Shown: piece after piece, positions 17,843-27,334 of the stretch
Layout: every line of letters starts with the position of its first letter
How positions within the stretch are numbered: position 1 is the first letter of the stretch
Source of the DNA: Acetobacter oeni
GTDB lineage: Bacteria; Pseudomonadota; Alphaproteobacteria; Acetobacterales; Acetobacteraceae
NCBI RefSeq assembly: GCF_011516825.1
Contig: NZ_WOTA01000010.1
Location: forward strand, 1-64,000
Length of the DNA: 64,000 nt
Direction of reading: 5' to 3'
Position numbers and translations under genes: made by a program
The notes under the pieces: generated by a model
Seen by the model: only the letters and a program-made list of their open reading frames with translations
The model's database searches: none
What the model was told of the DNA's origin: nothing

Positions 17843-20050
17843 TTAAGACGCTGAAATATTCCACGAAGAGCCAAACTGCGCGGCGGAGGCATATCCGGCC
17901 GTCGAAGAAACTGCTGGTGCTGATGAGGCAGCAGACTGAGGCCCCTTGCGCAGCACGAGCACACCACCTGGTTCAAACGAATAAATATAATCAGCATGCG
18001 CAATGGTCGCCGGTCGGTGAGCCACCATAACCCGGGTAATATTCATATCGCGAAGCGAGGTTGCCACGATTGATTCGGTATATTCGTCAAGATGACTGGT
18101 GGCCTCGTCGAGGAACAGGATCTGAGGCTGCTTATAGAGAGCGCGTGCCAGAATAACACGTTGTTTCTGACCTCCTGAGAGAGCTCCCCCCATATCACCG
18201 ACCAGCGTTTCCAGGCCCATCGGCATACGTTTAATATCTTCAAGAATTGCCGCTTTTGCAGCACATTGCGCAATCAGATCCTGATCCGGATGTTCGGCAA
18301 AGCCACTGATATTATCAGCGATTGATCCTGAGAAAAGTCCGTCGTCCTGCAGCACTCCGGCAATACGCTCACGGTAGCCATCAAGCGACAGCACCGACAC
18401 ATCAACACCATCGATAAAAATACGTCCCTCATCCACAACCTGAAGTCCCATCATTGCTTTCAGCAATGTGGTCTTGCCGCACCCTGATGGCCCGACAATC
18501 GCAACGCTTCGGCCTGCCGGGATATCGAGATCAATGTTCCGAAAGATCCATGGTTCCTGTTCAGCATAGCGTACTGACAACTCCCGGCATGCCAGAGCCG
18601 CAGAACCATGATGCGCTGCCGAAATTGTTGTACTGACAGGTTCGGGTTCCGTCATAACGATGTCGGCGAGACGGTCACTCTGAATATTGAGCATTCGCAG
18701 TTTGAAGCCCGTACTCACAAGAGAGCCAACGCGGCTGGCAAACTGATCTTTATAAGACAGGAACGCGACAAGCATACCAACAGACATGGACCCGTCCATC
18801 ACCTGCTTCGCGCCCAGAACCATCATAATCAGACGATCTGCACCAAAAATAAAATCCCCCAGCCGGCCATAAATAAGATCGAACCGCTGTAGCCGGAGTT
18901 TGATGTTGATACTGTCGACGATAATATTCAGCCAGGTCGTGCGACGTCTTTCTCTGAGTCCGAGAAGCTTGACACTCGCCATCCCCCTCAAAGTCTCGAT
19001 AAAATGGCTCTGCTGACGAGCATTGACGACAATCTGTTCTTCTGATGCCTCACGATAGGTCCGGTAGGTCAAAAGCCTGAGCAAAATGTCCAGAAGAAGA
19101 GCAACGCACGCAACAAGACCCAGCCAGCCGCCATAAACGAACAGCATGATTCCCATACCGATGCCCATGAGGCCGTCCATGACGGTCTGGACCATGTCCG
19201 TCGTCAAAGCCTGCTGAATCGACCCGAGCGAACCAAAACGGGAAAGAACGTCACCAACATGGCGTTTACTGAAATAATCAAGCGGCAGACGGGTCAGATG
19301 ATCAAAGAGACTGGTATTCCATTCCAGACCAACTCTCGTGCTGAACAGTGTGACCGCCCATGTACGGACAGAACCGATAAACATCTGCACCAGCAGCAAT
19401 AAGGCGAGCCCGAATGTGATCGTCATTAACAGATCATGATCTGCAGTAACGATAACTTCGTCGATCACGACCTGTGAAATCATCGGCGAAATCAGAGCTA
19501 TGACCTCCAGTCCCAGCGACAGGAAGAACAGCCCCATAAGAGCGCCCCGCAGACCGGCAACATGGCGAAACAGGTCGCGCAGACGGATCGTTTCACGCTC
19601 ATCTTTACGTTCGAACGACTCATTTGGCGTCACCTCAAGAGCAACGCCCGTAAACTCTCTGGACACCTCTTCGAGCGGGACTGTCCGGTGACCGACAGCC
19701 GGATCATTAATTGTGATCAGGTCGCCTTTGACCGACACGAGAACCACAAAATGGTTCATTCCCCAGTGAAGAATACAGGGGGTCCGGAGTTTAGACAGAT
19801 CCTGCAGATCAAGCCGCACTGCACGGCTGGTAAAACCGAGTGTGTCAGCAGCCTGCACGAGACTGCGTAATGTCACACCTTTGATAGAAACCGAATAACG
19901 GCGACGCAGCGTAGCAAGATCAATCTGGTGACCATAAAATCCGAGAACCATCGCCAGACAGGCAATTCCGCATTCCGCAGCCTCAACCTGCAGAACAACC
20001 GGCACTTTTTTACCGAAACCAAACTGAAGGGAATCAAAAGGAGTACTCAT
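17843..20050 (-). CDS. C39-peptidase ABC transporter (double-glycine peptide exporter)
   Basis: This 735-aa fused exporter has three parts. The first is an N-terminal C39 cysteine peptidase (1-130) with catalytic C27 in QVEAAECGIACL, H100 in HWGMNHFVVL and D116 in INDPA. The second is a six-helix membrane domain (about 165-450). The third is an ATPase with Walker A GPSGCGKTT at 520, signature LSGGQKQR at about 624 and Walker B ILFLDEA at about 645. Such proteins cut leaders after Gly-Gly and export the mature peptide. All catalytic residues are present. Its ATG overlaps the adaptor gene stop (20047-20050), and the candidate substrate lies upstream at 21530-21928. Confidence 0.92.
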   Translation of the reverse strand: MSTPFDSLQFGFGKKVPVVLQVEAAECGIACLAMVLGFYGHQIDLATLRRRYSVSIKGVTLRSLVQAADTLGFTSRAVRLDLQDLSKLRTPCILHWGMNHFVVLVSVKGDLITINDPAVGHRTVPLEEVSREFTGVALEVTPNESFERKDERETIRLRDLFRHVAGLRGALMGLFFLSLGLEVIALISPMISQVVIDEVIVTADHDLLMTITFGLALLLLVQMFIGSVRTWAVTLFSTRVGLEWNTSLFDHLTRLPLDYFSKRHVGDVLSRFGSLGSIQQALTTDMVQTVMDGLMGIGMGIMLFVYGGWLGLVACVALLLDILLRLLTYRTYREASEEQIVVNARQQSHFIETLRGMASVKLLGLRERRRTTWLNIIVDSINIKLRLQRFDLIYGRLGDFIFGADRLIMMVLGAKQVMDGSMSVGMLVAFLSYKDQFASRVGSLVSTGFKLRMLNIQSDRLADIVMTEPEPVSTTISAAHHGSAALACRELSVRYAEQEPWIFRNIDLDIPAGRSVAIVGPSGCGKTTLLKAMMGLQVVDEGRIFIDGVDVSVLSLDGYRERIAGVLQDDGLFSGSIADNISGFAEHPDQDLIAQCAAKAAILEDIKRMPMGLETLVGDMGGALSGGQKQRVILARALYKQPQILFLDEATSHLDEYTESIVATSLRDMNITRVMVAHRPATIAHADYIYSFEPGGVLVLRKGPQSAASSAPAVSSTAGYASAAQFGSSWNISAS

Positions 20051-21351
20051 TTATCGACGAGGCCACCACTGACAGCTATAATGCTGTCATGCATGCTGGT
20101 CACCGGGTCAAAAATCCATTGGTAAAGGTGCCGTGAATCAATTGCGATATCGGCCTCGACTTCCATCCCGGCCTGAAGCGGTTTGTCATGGCTATAAGCA
20201 ATTACATATGGGAGATCAGGCTTAACCCGTATCCTGTAAAGATCCGACGATGACTTCTGATCTTTCGAACTGTCCGCCTGCTGTTGCTGCTGAGTTTGTC
20301 CGGGTTCTGTCGCCGTTAAAGGCGCCCGTGTGATTTCTGTCACACGCCCCCTGGCAAGACCGAAACGCTGATATGGAAAGGCTGCGTAACGCAGAAGGAC
20401 AGGCTCACCTTCACGAACAAAACCGATGGATGCACTTGTCACGTACAATTCAGCATCAAGCGCACGTCCTGTGGGCAGCAGCGTCACGAGTGGAGCTCCA
20501 GAACTCACCTGCTGTCCCGGATTTGCACGTACGGCGCTCAGAACGCCGTCCTCCGGGGCCTCGATCAGGATTTCACGATGGCTTTCACTTTCGTCAATCT
20601 GCTGATCAATCTGGGCAATCTGTCGATCAAGATCGTTAATATCGTGCGCTGTCTGCCGATCATACCGTATCAGCTTCGATGTATTATCTGAGATTTTACC
20701 TTCGGTATCGGTATAATTCTGAAGAAACTGAGCATGACTGCTAAGCAACTGAGCATAAGTATAAAGCTGACTCTGAAACTGCGTCTCAGTCACGAGATGA
20801 GCACTCTGAGCATTTCTCATCCGGTTTACGGCTGCTTCAACGACTGGCAGCACTTTAGCATCATTGGCAAGTTGCTGCCCTGTCAGAACATGCTGCTGCT
20901 GCAGGTTCCGAATCTGATTTACCAGAGCCTGCTTCTCGACAGGTGCGTCCGCAACCCGGATTTCCTTCTGCCGCTCGAACAGCTCGCGTTGCCGGTGTAA
21001 TTGCGCAAGAACCTGTCCCTGCGTAGCGCCGGCTGTCGTCCGGGCCTCAAGATCAATCACGAAGAGCGGTTGCCCCTTGTGAACCTGCATGCCTTCTTCG
21101 GCCAGCCTCTTACTGACAACTCCCGCCGCACTTGCATCAATCGTAATCAGGCCGGTCGGCGGGAGCATCAGACCTGTCGCATGTACACGGCGTGTATAAA
21201 TACCAAAGCGTACATAGAGGATGGCCAGAACAACAAGCCCCAGCGTTACCCAGGAAATAACCCGGACAGACAGGGATTGCGTGGCCTGCACCTGCCCCAG
21301 CCACGCCTGTCGGCGTGCGTCGATCGCTTCCTGGCGATAAAGTGACGACAT
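20047..21351 (-). CDS. HlyD-family membrane fusion protein of the peptide exporter
   Basis: This 434-aa adaptor has one N-terminal membrane helix (VISWVTLGLVVLAILYVRFGIY, in two parts, residues about 32-53). A split lipoyl domain follows (GLITIDASAAGVVSKRLAEEGMQV... and ILIEAPEDGVLSAVRANPGQQV), flanking a long coiled coil (about 110-265, many Gln, Leu and Glu). A beta-barrel region follows, with a Gln-rich insert (QTQQQQQADSS). It bridges the ABC exporter to an outer-membrane channel. It is translationally coupled to the ABC gene. No TolC-like gene lies in this window, so the outer channel must be elsewhere. Confidence 0.9.
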   Translation of the reverse strand: MSSLYRQEAIDARRQAWLGQVQATQSLSVRVISWVTLGLVVLAILYVRFGIYTRRVHATGLMLPPTGLITIDASAAGVVSKRLAEEGMQVHKGQPLFVIDLEARTTAGATQGQVLAQLHRQRELFERQKEIRVADAPVEKQALVNQIRNLQQQHVLTGQQLANDAKVLPVVEAAVNRMRNAQSAHLVTETQFQSQLYTYAQLLSSHAQFLQNYTDTEGKISDNTSKLIRYDRQTAHDINDLDRQIAQIDQQIDESESHREILIEAPEDGVLSAVRANPGQQVSSGAPLVTLLPTGRALDAELYVTSASIGFVREGEPVLLRYAAFPYQRFGLARGRVTEITRAPLTATEPGQTQQQQQADSSKDQKSSSDLYRIRVKPDLPYVIAYSHDKPLQAGMEVEADIAIDSRHLYQWIFDPVTSMHDSIIAVSGGLVDK

Positions 21352-21422
21352 ACAAAAAGGAATCTCTCAGTACAGAGCGTTTCGCTTACATAGTCACAAC
21401 AAAAAAATAAAGATAAAGGAAA

Positions 21423-21476
21423 CAAAAAAAAGACGATCACCTGGTGGTCTGCCTGTGCAGCCACCAGGTGATCGTC
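21423..21476 (-). terminator. strong terminator between precursor gene and export genes
   Basis: GACGATCACCTGGTGG (21432-21447) pairs perfectly over 16 bp with CCACCAGGTGATCGTC (21461-21476), with a 13-base loop. On the minus strand it is followed by a run of U (plus-strand A at 21424-21431). It sits between the precursor stop (21530) and the adaptor start (21351). It should end most precursor transcripts and allow limited read-through into the exporter genes. Confidence 0.9.
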
Positions 21477-21529
21477 AATTAATCAGATTACAGCCGTCAG
21501 AAACTCAGGTTATAATTTCTGTCCGAAGA

Positions 21530-21928
21530 TCAGCCCAGAGTACCCGTGCCATTCGGCGGGAAAGTAACTGTGCTCATACCTGACACCATGCCGCATCCGT
21601 TCAGCGTTACAGCTGACTTAATCGAAGAAACGACCGTATTAAGCAAAGAAGTCGCCTGAGCGACTGTCATGCTGAGGCCTTCTGTATAACCGAGCCGGGT
21701 GTCGGTACAGACATTCTGGACAGCCGAACTGATTGTTGAACAGCTGGCGTGATTATAGATGTCCGCTGCGACGTTATATTCGCCGGCAAGGTATCCGGCA
21801 TAGGCCGCTATCACAGCCGCACTCGTGCCACATGATGGCGCAGGGCTACAGGACGGCGCCGGATGACAGGAAGAAATACAGCATCCACCTGATACTTCAT
21901 CAAGTTCAGTCATAGTAAGTTCACGCAT
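21530..21928 (-). CDS. cysteine-rich double-glycine-leader precursor (bacteriocin-like)
   Basis: This 132-aa protein begins MRELTMTELDEVSGG, matching the double-glycine leader pattern L(-12)...EL(-8,-7)..V(-4)..GG at every key position. Cleavage after G15 would leave a 117-aa product starting CCISSC and containing eight cysteines (16, 17, 21, 27, 33, 63, 74, 112) with a repeated PAPSC unit. An Ala/Gly-rich segment follows (AAVIAAYAGYLAGEYNV). The gene lies just upstream of a matching C39 exporter and adaptor and has its own terminator. Role as an exported antimicrobial or signal is inferred; I know no close family. GGGGG precedes the ATG. Confidence 0.82.
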   Translation of the reverse strand: MRELTMTELDEVSGGCCISSCHPAPSCSPAPSCGTSAAVIAAYAGYLAGEYNVAADIYNHASCSTISSAVQNVCTDTRLGYTEGLSMTVAQATSLLNTVVSSIKSAVTLNGCGMVSGMSTVTFPPNGTGTLG

Positions 21929-22317
21929 CTGAATTACCCCCGTTATTTCATGATACTTCCCACATCTGACCCGTCCGCGAATCAGTGGGCAACCAAGCGC
22001 GACGCCATTACCTGACGTCTCGTCTTAAGTGGTTATTAATATTTTTTAGAGAATCGTTCCAGAGAATAAATCTCTCAACGCACAAACCGAACACGAAAAA
22101 CACAACGACATTTTATATCGCAGTAATGTATCATATCAGGGCATTTTTTGACTTCGCATCCCCAAAAAAAGCGGGACACACCTCACCGAATCAGCCATAT
22201 CAGCGTGCGTGTTTGAAAATAAAAAACATTAACGTTTTATTTCGTTGACAGCATATCAGGCTGGTAGTTAAAAAAAATCAAACAAGCCTTTTTCGATTCT
22301 GTTTTAAGGAACTCCAC
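21929..22317. promoter_or_regulatory. AT-rich divergent promoter region of the peptide locus
   Basis: This 389-bp region lies between the precursor gene (minus) and the Hint-protein gene (plus). It is markedly AT-rich (for example TTATTAATATTTTTTAG at about 22033) and contains no convincing gene. Both promoters should be here. A clear operator was not identified. Confidence 0.55.
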
Positions 22318-24060
22318 ATGCTTGACAGCACAAGCAGCGCACTGGCTGCGGCAGAAGCTGTACAATACGCAGCTTACACCAGCGGTAATGGCTCGGAAGC
22401 CGATCCTTACGTGCTTGCGTCCAGTTCAGACACAATAACACTGGAAACAGGCAAATGGTACGTTTTGCCAGATGGCGCGAGTATTGGCACAGTTGTTACG
22501 AATGAGTACAATTCCTCCAAGTCCACTGGTGGAATTAATGTAAACGGCGCGCACCTCGACATCCAGACCAGTGCAAGTGTAGCCGGCACCATTAACATGG
22601 GCACTTCAGGCTCAATACTTGTTCTGGAAAATACCAGTGGAAAATGGGCTTATCAGGCCAACATGCCAGGAGCAGACCTTTCAGCCGGTGGCGACCAGTT
22701 CTACACCTACCCTTCGCTTCAGAACGCCACGATTACCAATTTCGGCTCCGGCTCCGGCATTTGCGCTGAAGATGTTCCGGGGGGGTATGGCACACTGGGC
22801 ATCGCCAGTACCACTGCATCATCCGGTTCCAGCCTTGTGCTCAAGCATGACACATCGATTTCAGTTACCGACACTCCGGCCGATCCCGGCGGCAAGACGC
22901 TGCCTGGTTATATCAGTGTACCGGTCACAGTAGGAGCCAACTATCCGCTAACGTATTTCCATACCGATCCGAACAACTCCTGCCAGATTGATGGTTGTTT
23001 TCTTACCGGAACGCATATTCTGACACGCGACGGCGAAAAACCAGTTGAGACTCTGGTTGCCGGGGACGAGATCGCAGTCCTTGTTAACGACACTCTGACA
23101 TATCATCCGCTTAGCTGGCTCGGACGTTCACATGCCGATGTATCCAGACTTGATTTTGAGCAGGATGCTTATCCTGTTCGTATTCATCAGGATGCGTTTG
23201 GCTCAGGAATGCCGCACCGTGATCTGCTCGTAACATCCGAACATTGTATCTATATTGACGGACAGTTTGTCCCTGTTCGCATGCTGGTCAATAACCGCTC
23301 AATCGTTATAGATCGCAGTATCCCTGCTTATGATTTTTACCATGTCGAACTCGACGAGCACGCTGTGATCGTATCCGAAGGACTGTTCAGCGAAAGCTAC
23401 CTTGATACAGGAAACCGCGGAACTTTCGAAAACTCCGTCATTCGGTCCATGCGCCCACATTTCGCTGGTGGCATTATCATTTCCGGTGGCAAAAACTGGG
23501 AAAATGATGCCGCGGCACCACTGGTCACCGCACAGGACAAAGTAGAGCCTATATGGAATCAGCTGGCATCCCGGGCGAAACAGCTTGGCTTTGATAAAGA
23601 TTCCGCCTCAGAGGCAGCGAAGAAGATTACTGATCCGGATCTCAGGCTGGTAACCAGGGACGGTCGTGAAATCCGGCCGGTTCGTCACACTGACCATACT
23701 TATTGCTTCATGGTTCCGGCCAATGTTGATTCCGTAAGAATCGCTTCAAACATTACTCGTCCTTCTGATGCTATTGGCCCTTTTTGTGATGACAGACGTA
23801 AACTTGGTGTCCTTATTGGCAATGTGTGCGTTACAAATGGTCGTGACCGTCAGGCCGTGACAGTTCACAAAAGTCGTGATGCGGTTGATGGATGGCACAA
23901 TTTTGAAGGCGGCATTGGTCGCTGGACAGCGGGGAACGCGCTTCTGACGCTTGGACAAACTTCTGGAGGACTGTTTGCAAAAATGGTTGAGATTGAAGTG
24001 CTGTCTGCTGGCCCATATCTTGTCAGAAATACAGGTAAAACAGATATCCAGGTCGCCTGA
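22318..24060 (+). CDS. Hint-domain (Hedgehog/intein-type) surface-like protein
   Basis: This 580-aa protein has an N-terminal part (1-220) made of short beta-strand repeats rich in Gly, Ser, Thr and Asn (GGINVNGAHLDIQTSASVAG; GTINMGTSGSILVLENTSG), resembling passenger regions of exported adhesins. A Hint domain starts at C227 (CFLTGTHILTRDG, then KPVETLVAGDEI) with the conserved TSEHC histidine near 309. The C-terminal 200 residues are unassigned. Hint domains can self-cleave; the starting Cys is present. No classical signal peptide is visible. AAGGAA precedes the ATG. It is divergent from the precursor gene; a functional link is inference. Confidence 0.82.
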   Translation: MLDSTSSALAAAEAVQYAAYTSGNGSEADPYVLASSSDTITLETGKWYVLPDGASIGTVVTNEYNSSKSTGGINVNGAHLDIQTSASVAGTINMGTSGSILVLENTSGKWAYQANMPGADLSAGGDQFYTYPSLQNATITNFGSGSGICAEDVPGGYGTLGIASTTASSGSSLVLKHDTSISVTDTPADPGGKTLPGYISVPVTVGANYPLTYFHTDPNNSCQIDGCFLTGTHILTRDGEKPVETLVAGDEIAVLVNDTLTYHPLSWLGRSHADVSRLDFEQDAYPVRIHQDAFGSGMPHRDLLVTSEHCIYIDGQFVPVRMLVNNRSIVIDRSIPAYDFYHVELDEHAVIVSEGLFSESYLDTGNRGTFENSVIRSMRPHFAGGIIISGGKNWENDAAAPLVTAQDKVEPIWNQLASRAKQLGFDKDSASEAAKKITDPDLRLVTRDGREIRPVRHTDHTYCFMVPANVDSVRIASNITRPSDAIGPFCDDRRKLGVLIGNVCVTNGRDRQAVTVHKSRDAVDGWHNFEGGIGRWTAGNALLTLGQTSGGLFAKMVEIEVLSAGPYLVRNTGKTDIQVA

Positions 24061-24507
24061 CTTTTATACTCTCTTCGCCTGGCCCGGACGCTCATCGGGC
24101 TGATTCTGAAATACGGGAAAGGAGGGTTTTTACCCTCCTTTTTTGTTGTTCGAAAAACTTAATACCAGAGAAACGATAAGGCCACGCTCTGGCAAAGCCC
24201 ACATAACAACGCATATGCCCGGCTTCACATATTATGCTGGTTGTTTACATAATATTCCTGCCACTGCGATATAGTGGAATCATTCGTTCAGACTTTCGGC
24301 ATCACGACCTGCCTTACGTCTCCATGAATTCGGAAACAATTTAGAAACAGGCATTCACTCGTGCGAAACTGTTTTACCTTATTTTCCATATTACGGAGTT
24401 GTGCTCTCTGAGCCGGAACTCTCACAAAGGGAATCTGAAAGTCCGCAACTGGTTCATCTGGTCTGGTTATCAGCTGATGTGCCAATGAACGAAGCGGGCA
24501 GGAGCAC
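24061..24507. other. 447-bp intergenic region upstream of the SARP-like regulator
   Basis: It begins with the Hint gene terminator and is AT-rich in the middle (CACATATTATGCTGGTTGTTTACATAATATT, read as two parts, around 24226-24256). It ends with the AGGAG site for the regulator. No gene is visible. Confidence 0.55.
24118..24144 (+). terminator. rho-independent terminator of the Hint-protein gene
   Basis: AAAGGAGGGT (24118-24127) pairs with ACCCTCCTTT (24132-24141), followed by further T residues. It lies about 58 bp past the stop at 24060. Confidence 0.9.
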
Positions 24508-26646
24508 ATGAGTTTGTTTGAGCTGACCAAGCCAGGATTGAGAAAATCCGACGCAGCAATTCTGCGCATTGAACTTCTCGGTTCAATGTCGGCTCATATG
24601 CTCGACGGCTCCGTAATCACTCCGACCGGCGCCAAAACCAGAGGTCTTCTGGCGATACTGGCGTTATCTGACCGAAGGACGGTGACCCGACGTACGCTGG
24701 CCAGCCTTCTCTGGAGCCGCCGTTCGGATGAACAGGCACGTGCTTCGCTAAGGCAGGAAATTCACCGGCTTGCCGAAGCACTTAGTCCTCTGGGGACAGA
24801 TATTATCGATGTCCAGAGACACACTCTGGCCCTGAAGCCCGTACTGACGACAGTGGATGCCGAGCGGTATCTGAATGCAACAACATCCGGTATCCTTAAA
24901 CTCCCGGAAACGGCCGCCACCCTGCTGACCGATCTCGACTCTGTCGATCCGGCGCTTGATGAATGGCTGTCAGCGCAACGAAACCGGCTGCGGGAACATC
25001 TCGTCACGACTCTTGAACAGGCTCTCGCCGCACTGCCGGAGACCGAGCAAAGAATGGCAGTTGCGGCACGTCTGCTGCGTCTGGACCGGCTTAACGAAAA
25101 TGCGTGGCAGGCTCAGTTGCGCGAACTTGCGCGTCGAAATGACACCGGGGCCGGCCTCCTCGCGGCAGAACAATGCGTAATTACGTTCCGCGATACCCTT
25201 GATGCGGAGCCGGGTCCGGGAACCATGGCTATTATCTCAGAACTTCGCGCTCAGCATGCGAATGGAAAAGCAGGTTCTGAGAGCGCGTCCTGGATGGCGG
25301 AGAGCATAGCTCATGCATCTCAGAGCAGCGGAACTTACCGGGCGGCGGGACTGTCCTCAGCGGAACATATCGCACGCCATGGCATCCTGAACAGCCATAT
25401 CGCAAGTGTTGGATTCTTACACATACAAGGTGCACAGCTTCTGTCAGTTTCAGCCGATCAGGCTGACAATCTGTTTGATTTTCTCATCATCCAGCTGGTT
25501 CAGTTCGGTTTCCTGTCTGTCTTTCCATGTCAGAAAATTGCGCCCGGGACGGGAAGCATAGCAGCCTCAGAAAACTACCCGCAGTCTGATTATCTCGTAG
25601 AAACCAGACTACAGCCCGGCACCACATCACCTGTTGAAGGACTGGCGCGCGCCCCCCGTCATGCCACAAGATTAACTGTCCGCCTCACGGACCGGCGGCA
25701 CGGCGGCGTCATCGTCTGGGCCGAGCGGTTCCATGTCACGCCCGAAACCATTGATGCCGTTGCTTCTCTCATGACGACAGAAATTGCCTGGCGCATAGCT
25801 GTCACGGAGGCCCGGAATACGACAGGACGTGCAGCAGAGGATCTTCTTCCCGTCGAAGCCGGGTTACGTTCGCTTGCACTTATCAACCGGAACGAACCCG
25901 CAGTTTATTCACAAGTGGAGACGTTACTCGAACGTGGATTACAACGTGATCCTGAGCATCCGTTCCTGCTTCTTGTTTCTGCAATTTTCAGGCTGATACG
26001 TTCTTTCGAGCAATGGAACGAAACGGCATACACACAGGATATCGAAGCAGCGACTGAGGCCGCGCGCCAACTGGTCCACGCAATGCCTGAAAGCATGATC
26101 GGCAGGCTTATTCTGGCAAGACTGCTTCTGAATATTCCGGGTGAAGCGAACTATGGCGCAAATCTGCTCGCTGAGATAGCGCCGGCAACCCCTTCAGCCG
26201 GCCTCATTGCCGCAATCAGCGCTTACTCGAAGCTCGTCAGTGGAGATACAGATGCCGCACGCAGCAGCCTGGAATTATTTATCAGGTCTCACGCGACACA
26301 CCCTTTCGCGGACCTGTTTGATACTGATTTTGTGCTTTTGCTCCTCCTGACCGGTTGCACCGAAGAGGCGATCCGGCGGGCAAAAACCTCCATCAGCACG
26401 GCGCCAACCCGCGTAGCAATGCTCGTGCTTTATCTTGCTGCGCTGCAGAAACTCCAGTACGAGGACGGGACAGATACCGAAGATGAAAAGGCCGACATTA
26501 AAGGGCGTCTTGCCTGTCTGGCACCTTCGCTTTCGGTGGACACCGTAATGGAACATTACAGTCATCTCCCTGCGCTACAGCAACTGATGCTTCGTCGATT
26601 GCTGACTGACGCAGGACTGTCCGAAACTGCATCTGTTTTGAATTAA
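24508..26646 (+). CDS. SARP/BTAD-type transcriptional regulator with TPR-like C-terminus
   Basis: This 712-aa protein has an N-terminal winged-helix-like DNA-binding region (ILRIELLGSMSAHMLDGSV, then KTRGLLAILALS and LASLLWSRRSDEQARASLRQ, residues about 18-95). A bacterial-transcriptional-activation-type helical domain follows (about 100-245; LRLDRLNENAWQAQLRELA). The rest is a long helical region with TPR character (about 440-700). SARP-like proteins activate secondary-metabolite or export loci. AGGAG lies 4 bases before the ATG. It is next to the peptide export locus and may control it; this is inferred from position. No ATPase P-loop was seen between the domains. Confidence 0.78.
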   Translation: MSLFELTKPGLRKSDAAILRIELLGSMSAHMLDGSVITPTGAKTRGLLAILALSDRRTVTRRTLASLLWSRRSDEQARASLRQEIHRLAEALSPLGTDIIDVQRHTLALKPVLTTVDAERYLNATTSGILKLPETAATLLTDLDSVDPALDEWLSAQRNRLREHLVTTLEQALAALPETEQRMAVAARLLRLDRLNENAWQAQLRELARRNDTGAGLLAAEQCVITFRDTLDAEPGPGTMAIISELRAQHANGKAGSESASWMAESIAHASQSSGTYRAAGLSSAEHIARHGILNSHIASVGFLHIQGAQLLSVSADQADNLFDFLIIQLVQFGFLSVFPCQKIAPGTGSIAASENYPQSDYLVETRLQPGTTSPVEGLARAPRHATRLTVRLTDRRHGGVIVWAERFHVTPETIDAVASLMTTEIAWRIAVTEARNTTGRAAEDLLPVEAGLRSLALINRNEPAVYSQVETLLERGLQRDPEHPFLLLVSAIFRLIRSFEQWNETAYTQDIEAATEAARQLVHAMPESMIGRLILARLLLNIPGEANYGANLLAEIAPATPSAGLIAAISAYSKLVSGDTDAARSSLELFIRSHATHPFADLFDTDFVLLLLLTGCTEEAIRRAKTSISTAPTRVAMLVLYLAALQKLQYEDGTDTEDEKADIKGRLACLAPSLSVDTVMEHYSHLPALQQLMLRRLLTDAGLSETASVLN

Positions 26647-26821
26647 AATGCCTGATACCCCGGAAGAAAGACCGGCGGCGCTTGGCTCCGCCTGCTCAAC
26701 GGGATATGAAAGCCTGGCCAGACTACTTGCGGTCATGCCCCATTCTGCCGCCTCCGAGGCCGGGAGATGCCACAAAGGCGGGGGCTGTTGGCGTGCCTTT
26801 CTACAGGAGTCGCAGCACCAC

Positions 26822-27334
26822 ATGTCCACCACTCGTCCCTGCCAGACTTCATTGTATGTCAGACATACAACGCACCTGGTTGCTGTTCTCACGCTTTTTA
26901 CACTGACAGCCTGTTCAGGCGGCGATAAGGCCAGCGACCTGACCGCGCCGAGAAATCACCTTCTCAGCGAGGATCGTGGAGCGACCGGAGGTGATGACCA
27001 GCTAAACGGGGGTGTTAACGCCTACCTGTGGCGTGGTGCTCTGGATACCCTGTCCTTCATGCCTATTGCGTCGGCTGACGCCGTAGGAGGCTTCATCCTG
27101 ACCGACTGGTATACACCGCCGGCAGCACATGGTGAGCGTTTTAAGATTACGGCCTATATTCTTGACCGCCGCCTCCGTTCCGATGCCCTGCGGGTAAGTG
27201 TTTTCCGCCAGATGCAGCAGGATGGCGCCTGGATTGATACGCCGCCAGCCGCGAACATGGCATCGGACATTACATCGAAAATCCTGGCACGGGCACGTGA
27301 GCTTCGGGCCGACAACGGAAACCGCGACAACTGA
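26822..27334 (+). CDS. DUF3576 lipoprotein
   Basis: This 170-aa protein has a lipoprotein signal (HLVAVLTLFTLTACSGGD, lipobox LTAC). The DUF3576 core covers VNAYLWRGALDTLSFMPIAS, GGFILTDWYTPP, ERFKITAYILDRRLRSDALRV and the tail ASDITSKILARARELR. It is probably anchored in the outer membrane facing the periplasm. ATG at 26822 follows AGGAG. The following genes are leuS, lptE and holA, an arrangement widely conserved in alphaproteobacteria, where DUF3576 is thought to belong to the envelope. Exact role unknown. Confidence 0.85.
   Translation: MSTTRPCQTSLYVRHTTHLVAVLTLFTLTACSGGDKASDLTAPRNHLLSEDRGATGGDDQLNGGVNAYLWRGALDTLSFMPIASADAVGGFILTDWYTPPAAHGERFKITAYILDRRLRSDALRVSVFRQMQQDGAWIDTPPAANMASDITSKILARARELRADNGNRDN

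Follow-up and report, generated by a model that had tools for sequence, protein, structure and literature searches.

Do the genes at positions 17843 to 26646 of a 64,000-nucleotide stretch of the Acetobacter oeni genome (contig NZ_WOTA01000010.1; the whole stretch is called the window below) form one secretion system, and what might that system release? An earlier interpretation made from the letters of the DNA (the sequence-only reading) had recognised an exporter with a C39 peptidase domain, an HlyD-type adaptor, a double-glycine precursor, a divergent Hint-domain gene and a SARP-like regulator, and had treated the block as a single system. All five genes were confirmed in place by their open reading frames (ORFs) and profile matches. 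Comparison with relatives, 147 genomes with that of A. oeni included, indicates that the first four of these genes very probably constitute one unit, and that the SARP-like gene is a bystander.

A conserved four-gene unit

The exporter gene (17843..20050, minus strand) and the adaptor gene (20047..21351, minus strand) overlap by 4 bases at the exporter start. The precursor gene (21530..21928, minus strand) precedes them in the same orientation, and the Hint gene (22318..24060, plus strand) diverges from it. The precursor family, counted at E<1e-10, is present in 13 of the 147 genomes; 24 of the 37 genomes tallied gave weak matches, with E of about 0.001-0.1, and were left out. A separate search with residues 1-225 of the Hint protein, its N-terminal domain, found the identical 13 genomes, with a single copy in each. 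The exporter, at E<=1e-100, occurs in 28 of the 147, all 13 carriers of precursor and Hint gene among them. In all 12 unbroken loci, window included, the Hint gene is divergent from precursor, adaptor and exporter genes; in G007 the two halves lie on separate contig ends. The cassette is also intact, but away from leuS, in genomes G044 and G011. Gluconobacter frateurii (L126) and genome G480 (L260) have the gene order of the window, and in G. thailandicus precursor, adaptor and exporter genes stand at a contig end. An even draw of 397 genomes of the family yielded six with the precursor at E<=1e-6, four of them from the own genus and two from the genus of G480. A plasmid collection gave no match to the precursor or to the Hint N-terminal domain.

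Because adjacency is conserved, because precursor and Hint gene share one set of 13 carriers among the 147 genomes, and because an upstream motif (below) is common to most cassette loci, exporter, adaptor, precursor and Hint gene can with considerable confidence be regarded as one four-gene unit. To this extent the proposal of a single system stands; it does not extend to the SARP-like gene.

Exporter and adaptor

The 735-residue exporter matches Peptidase_C39 (E 3e-37), ABC_membrane (1.1e-33) and ABC_tran (3.8e-30) in one protein and has the ATP-binding cassette (ABC) motifs. Its catalytic residues Cys27, His100 and Asp116 are kept in all 41 exporters aligned. It thus belongs to an already known kind, the C39 peptidase-containing ABC exporters, which cut Gly-Gly leaders and secrete peptides. 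The score for the NCBIfam model NHLM_micro_ABC1 (NHLP bacteriocin export) is 488.9 bits, below the curated 853.3. The 434-residue HlyD-type membrane-fusion adaptor, likewise recognised by profile matches, is 89% identical to its A. musti counterpart over 434 residues.

Two other roles for genes at such loci were considered and rejected. PADLOC, as a test for a defence system, matched the exporter alone, in the ATPase part in the four matches shown. The genes downstream of the exporter in G027, candidates for immunity, look by eye to be of the SbcC/SbcD nuclease type. Separately, the exporter gene of G043 (L079, 11600-13773) is split across two frames near residue 621, either by assembly error or as a broken gene.

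The precursor and its paralogs

The 132-residue precursor consists of a 15-residue double-glycine leader, MRELTMTELDEVSGG (coding part 21884..21928, minus strand), and a mature part of 117 residues with a cysteine-rich N-terminal arm. In a structural model built from seven sequences (mean predicted local distance difference test score, pLDDT, 71), leader and cysteine arm (1-32) are disordered and helices span residues 36-58, 63-84 and 89-106. A fold search against PDB gave no match at E<=0.001, and matches in a sequence search against PDB were at chance level (best E 0.032). The Pfam families MccV (14.8 of 27 bits) and Bacteriocin_IIc (15 of 27.1 bits) both fell below their cut-offs. The maximum hydropathy over 19 residues is 1.14; since a value of about 1.6 is the rule of thumb for a membrane-inserting peptide, the precursor is low for a peptide of that type.

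Among the 25 members of the family that were listed, both linked and unlinked, 23 have Cys directly after the double glycine, while the residues around it vary; the exceptions, G044 and G011, have Phe. Two members outside this list, L108 (Phe) and G480 (Tyr), have Cys as the second residue, which brings the overall count of Cys-first members to 23 of 27. The family also includes 12 unlinked paralogs. G013 has two of them and ten further genomes of the 13 have one each, while none was found in G011 and G044. That of the own genome (G000:C2:224790-225197) stands alone among core-type genes and has the motif GxxxGxxxG, whereas the window peptide has AxxxGxxxG only. No Hint match was found within 19 kb of the 12 unlinked loci.

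The Hint protein

The 580-residue Hint_2 protein comprises an N-terminal, mostly beta domain (1-225), a Hint domain that begins at Cys227, and a C-terminal domain. The Hint domain (residues 227-364; 22996..23409, plus strand) matches PF13403 with an E of 4.8e-35 and 121.5 bits (cut-off 28.4) and contains the motif TSEH with His309. Its Cys and TSEH are invariant in 12 of 12 close proteins, those of G044 and G011 included, and Cys227 and His309 are unchanged across an alignment of ten Hint sequences. Foldseek placed the region, in a partly low-confidence model, closest to intein-like and Hedgehog autoprocessing folds (6tmm, E 4e-6; 2lwy, 1.1e-4; 1at0, 3.9e-4). When Hint proteins are compared, the N-terminal part varies and the C-terminal part is common; the C-terminal domain of the window protein has one further match in the own genome, likewise in a Hint protein. 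No membrane segment was noticed by eye, no predictor having been run. From the intact motif and fold, self-processing of the Hint protein appears rather likely.

Hint genes are abundant in some relatives: six Acetobacter genomes (G022, G028, G033, G036, G040 and G047) have 16-24 Hint_2 matches each, and 14 control genomes have none. One Hint_2 protein of the own genome (L110:6850-10278, G000:C9) carries AIDA-type repeats and a fused glycosyltransferase domain of group 1, and in G036 a second Hint-like protein stands in tandem (L087:12926-14128), its Hint domain diverging at the start. A further own-genome Hint gene at C10:89888 was considered as exporter-linked and set aside, the nearby ABC matches being by eye an ABC-F type ATPase.

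A motif upstream of the Hint and precursor genes

The region between the Hint and precursor genes is conserved in several frames and on both strands, a pattern that pointed away from a hidden small gene there and to a DNA motif instead. The motif shared by the two upstream regions is TTAACGNTTTATTNTCT. For the test, six distinct sites that precede unlinked precursors were built into a model, which was run against 14 cassette loci; each locus supplied 400 random windows as its own controls. Because these windows are mostly coding, 1000 dinucleotide shuffles of each upstream stretch were added. On the Hint side the motif lies at -89 to -98 in 10 of the 14 loci, and in each of these none of the 400 random windows scored as well; at most one of the 1000 shuffles was as good in nine of these loci, and 14 were in the tenth, L072. 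On the precursor side, 11 of the 14 loci had three or fewer random windows as good, and 10 had two or fewer such shuffles. In the window, the Hint-side copy (22229..22246, plus strand), 89 bases before the Hint start, is strong, with none of 400 random windows and none of 1000 shuffles as good; the precursor-side copy (22060..22077, minus strand), 149 bases before the precursor start, is weak.

Sites at -105 to -108 are carried by 11 of the 12 unlinked precursors. Scores were low (2.0-9.9) upstream of the SARP, HlyD, prs and DUF3576 genes and of four of the five other Hint genes of the own genome. A 12-site precursor-side model found 37 matches scoring at least 18 in 2.6 million bases, all but two (both in L090) upstream of a precursor or Hint gene; at the looser threshold of 13, it found 81 matches, against 31 in mononucleotide-shuffled sequence. 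We conclude from these sites that the Hint and precursor genes are probably under shared regulation, a view that we hold slightly less firmly than before because of the dinucleotide-shuffle test.

A terminator-like hairpin lies between the precursor and adaptor genes (21432..21476, minus strand), with a 16-bp stem, a T-run and a predicted energy of -38.6 kcal/mol; none of 40 mononucleotide shuffles was as good. Hairpins of -16 kcal/mol or lower follow the precursor in 11 of the 14 loci, and weak ones do so in L068, L072 and L075. Since the precursor gene lies before this hairpin, more precursor than exporter is likely to be made. The sequence-only reading had mentioned neither this hairpin nor the motif copies.

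More distant exporters

Mapping beyond the close clade covered 12 exporter loci with identities of 62% or more. The Hint gene stands beside the peptide/adaptor side in six of these, lies about 3.5 kb off in the first locus of G028, and is absent from five. A further, partial exporter match in G048 was left unmapped. The peptides at the distant loci are unrelated in sequence: an 86-residue family in G022, G028, G036, G042 and G048, a 116-residue glycine-rich peptide in G087 and a 61-residue bacteriocin-like peptide in G040. The exporter is thus modular, as its distant relatives are paired with unrelated peptides and about half of those mapped have no adjacent Hint gene. Neither of the conditions under which the sequence-only reading would give up a single system, exporter pairs without precursor and Hint gene or a Hint gene with unrelated neighbours everywhere, applies within the close clade, but the more distant relatives do show exporter pairs with other peptides.

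With assumed numbers of genes and lineages, the rough chance of such Hint adjacency is 2e-8 for six of 12 loci if they are independent, and 9e-5 for three of six lineages. The linked Hint domains are scattered in a core tree of 65 Hint sequences, in which deep support is weak, and the Hint-linked exporters occupy several positions in the exporter tree. In a group of 14 loci (L121-L133 and L141), Hint is adjacent in five, about 7-8 kb past the adaptor in four, and absent from five, one of which is cut by a contig end. In 66 others (L134-L200, L141 excepted), several of them short, there was no Hint match at E<=1e-5. The species in which the Hint gene lies some 7-8 kb past a related adaptor, rather than next to it, are Commensalibacter intestini and three Bombella species (L131, L132, L133 and L141).

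A proposed two-partner secretion cassette and its alternatives

On balance, we lean towards reading the genes, from their predicted products and arrangement, as a secretion cassette of acetic acid bacteria, with four genes and two partners. The C39 domain would cut the precursor after the double glycine, and exporter and adaptor, with a TolC-type pore encoded elsewhere, would release the mature proteins, usually with Cys first. The Hint domain would form a thioester at Cys227 and free or transfer its own N-terminal domain. Peptide and Hint products would be made together under a common regulator and would act at the cell surface, where we infer that the Hint protein works with the peptide. A surface or matrix role for the products is a tentative suggestion.

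Several observations weigh against this reading. The 13 carriers belong to one genus, and probably to one group, so that their co-occurrence does not amount to 13 separate events, and related upstream regions resemble one another by descent. A further five exporter loci, 35-48% identical, lack a Hint match in their vicinity (one sits on a contig of 7 kb); of the six Hint-rich relatives, G033 and G047 have no exporter match. The Hint-side motif misses L077, L078, L126 and L260 (192-462 of 1000 shuffles as good) and the precursor-side motif misses L068, L072 and L079 (139-367 of 1000). In the window itself the precursor-side copy was equalled by three of 400 random windows and 30 of 1000 shuffles; in L069 and L070 the best precursor-side site is at about -208 rather than -150; and among nine regions upstream of genes in distant cassettes, one also scores high (L084 precursor, 17.3 at -241). 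The motif was first spotted by eye in alignments of linked and unlinked genes, so its test is not wholly independent, and the scan of 2.6 million bases, which covered both strands and some genomes twice, did not extend to whole genomes. The model of the Hint protein is of low confidence (mean pLDDT 55), and no Sec signal is visible in the protein by eye, no predictor having been run.

The alternative that survives best, unlikely in our judgement, is a microcin or bacteriocin locus, in which the double-glycine peptide kills neighbours, immunity is encoded elsewhere and the Hint protein has an unrelated role. The 15-residue leader resembles that of Microcin V, the unlinked precursor of the own genome has GxxxGxxxG, and related exporters carry glycine-rich or bacteriocin-like peptides, two of which reach a hydropathy of 1.74-1.83; there is also the likeness to the Cdz system (available portions of PMC5380434). 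Against it, ORF list and gene maps showed nothing like an immunity gene in the cassette, as the sequence-only reading had also noted, one elsewhere in the genome being possible. MccV and Bacteriocin_IIc are below cut-off, the mature protein has 117 residues, three modelled helices and low hydropathy, and the Hint gene both co-occurs and shares the motif. A classical pore-forming bacteriocin is made less likely by the lack of an immunity gene in sight, by a product of this size and low hydropathy, and by the Hint partner; surface or matrix proteins or signals are the more likely products.

The same Cys and Hint residues would also suit a ligation, which we consider improbable: the N-terminal Cys of the trimmed peptide would capture the Cys227 thioester, joining the Hint N-terminal domain to the peptide by native chemical ligation as a covalent surface conjugate. 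Cys follows the double glycine in 23 of 25 listed members in spite of variable neighbours, and the Hint Cys and TxxH are intact. Yet the position is taken by Phe in G044, G011 and L108 and by Tyr in G480, although neither G044 nor G011 has lost its Hint motifs, and by Thr or Arg at other Hint-linked exporters. Disulfides may account for the Cys, since the arm is rich in cysteine. In a sister version, by analogy with Hedgehog and cholesterol, the N-terminal domain would be passed to a lipid such as a hopanoid. Either ligation or lipid transfer, if true, would amount to a novel kind of protein maturation in bacteria.

Less probable again is a Hint protein that confers immunity to the exported peptide or acts as its receptor, two of the roles, besides that of a second substrate, that the sequence-only reading had put forward. 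Its strict co-occurrence with the precursor and the lack of another candidate in the cassette favour this role, against which stand a Hint fold with catalytic-type residues, a protein without a membrane segment by the inspection noted above, and the 12 unlinked precursor loci without a nearby Hint match. Chance adjacency in Hint-rich genomes, kept by descent among related close loci, is very improbable despite the 16-24 Hint genes that six relatives each have, given the same pair in Gluconobacter, a cassette that is intact elsewhere on the chromosome in two genomes, the variety of Hint lineages found next to related exporters (the estimates above, with their assumed numbers) and the shared motif.

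Relation to known systems

The two-partner cassette agrees with C39 exporters that work with an HlyD adaptor and double-glycine peptides in its catalytic residues, ABC core, adaptor and leader; it differs in its dedicated Hint partner and its 117-residue, cysteine-armed product. Microcin V has a 15-residue double-glycine leader of the same style, but the window precursor is below the cut-off of its Pfam family and no immunity gene was seen. According to the available portions of PMC5380434, the contact-dependent Cdz system of Caulobacter likewise combines a type I exporter with small secreted proteins, in two divergent transcription units and with no pore gene in the cluster. In the cassette, in contrast, no CdzI-like gene was noticed, no search with CdzI itself having been made, and no extended glycine zipper is evident in the window peptide, which has AxxxGxxxG only, the unlinked paralog having GxxxGxxxG; conversely, the cassette has a Hint protein, and the word 'hint' is absent from the portions of PMC5380434 available.

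With the Hint superfamily (intein-like and Hedgehog domains) the window protein shares its fold, Cys and TxxH, and differs in its PF13403 branch, its own C-terminal domain and its association with a peptide exporter. Studies of Hedgehog and of bacterial intein-like domains imply that a Hint domain passes through a thioester (PMC7664689, PMC7765530, as far as their available text goes). The HINT domain of polymorphic toxins is likewise self-processing, but in the sections of PMC3482391 at hand it stands directly before a C-terminal toxin domain, whereas here the N-terminal part varies and the C-terminal part is common. In the accessible part of PMC11999647, a strain whose cellulose output is raised has, among its listed mutations, one in a Hint-domain gene of unknown function.

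Literature searched by title or abstract, with most subscription journals outside coverage, gave no description of the exporter-Hint partnership or cassette, and no described role for Hint_2 proteins of acetic acid bacteria. The gene set suggests an undescribed surface or competition system. In food bacteria that can be grown in culture, the cassette links a single Hint lineage with one exporter, one peptide family and a single DNA motif, which makes the role of a bacterial Hint protein directly testable.

Base composition and the SARP-like neighbour

The lower GC (guanine plus cytosine) content that had been taken as a mark of the system does not delimit it. Windows of 2 kb have a GC of 0.49-0.56 from 11 to 27 kb, covering prs, a phosphatase-superfamily gene and a cytochrome gene, and there are further dips in the window, for example at 44-47 kb. 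A low-GC island was therefore rejected, as low GC runs over the neighbouring genes.

The BTAD/SARP-like regulator gene (24508..26646, plus strand) encodes a protein whose BTAD match scores 23.7 bits against a cut-off of 22.1. It was rejected as regulator or member of the system because it stays with DUF3576-leuS in all six genomes checked that lack the cassette there (G044, G011, G020, G040, G036 and G024) and has no shared motif upstream; it is a bystander of the leuS neighbourhood. Its position and that of leuS in G003, G014, G017 and G019 agree with such a neighbourhood. SARP matches at E<=1e-30 occur in 27 of 81 genomes. The BTAD/SARP-like gene beside DUF3576-leuS, at 24508-27334 of the window, is a recurrent Acetobacter arrangement.

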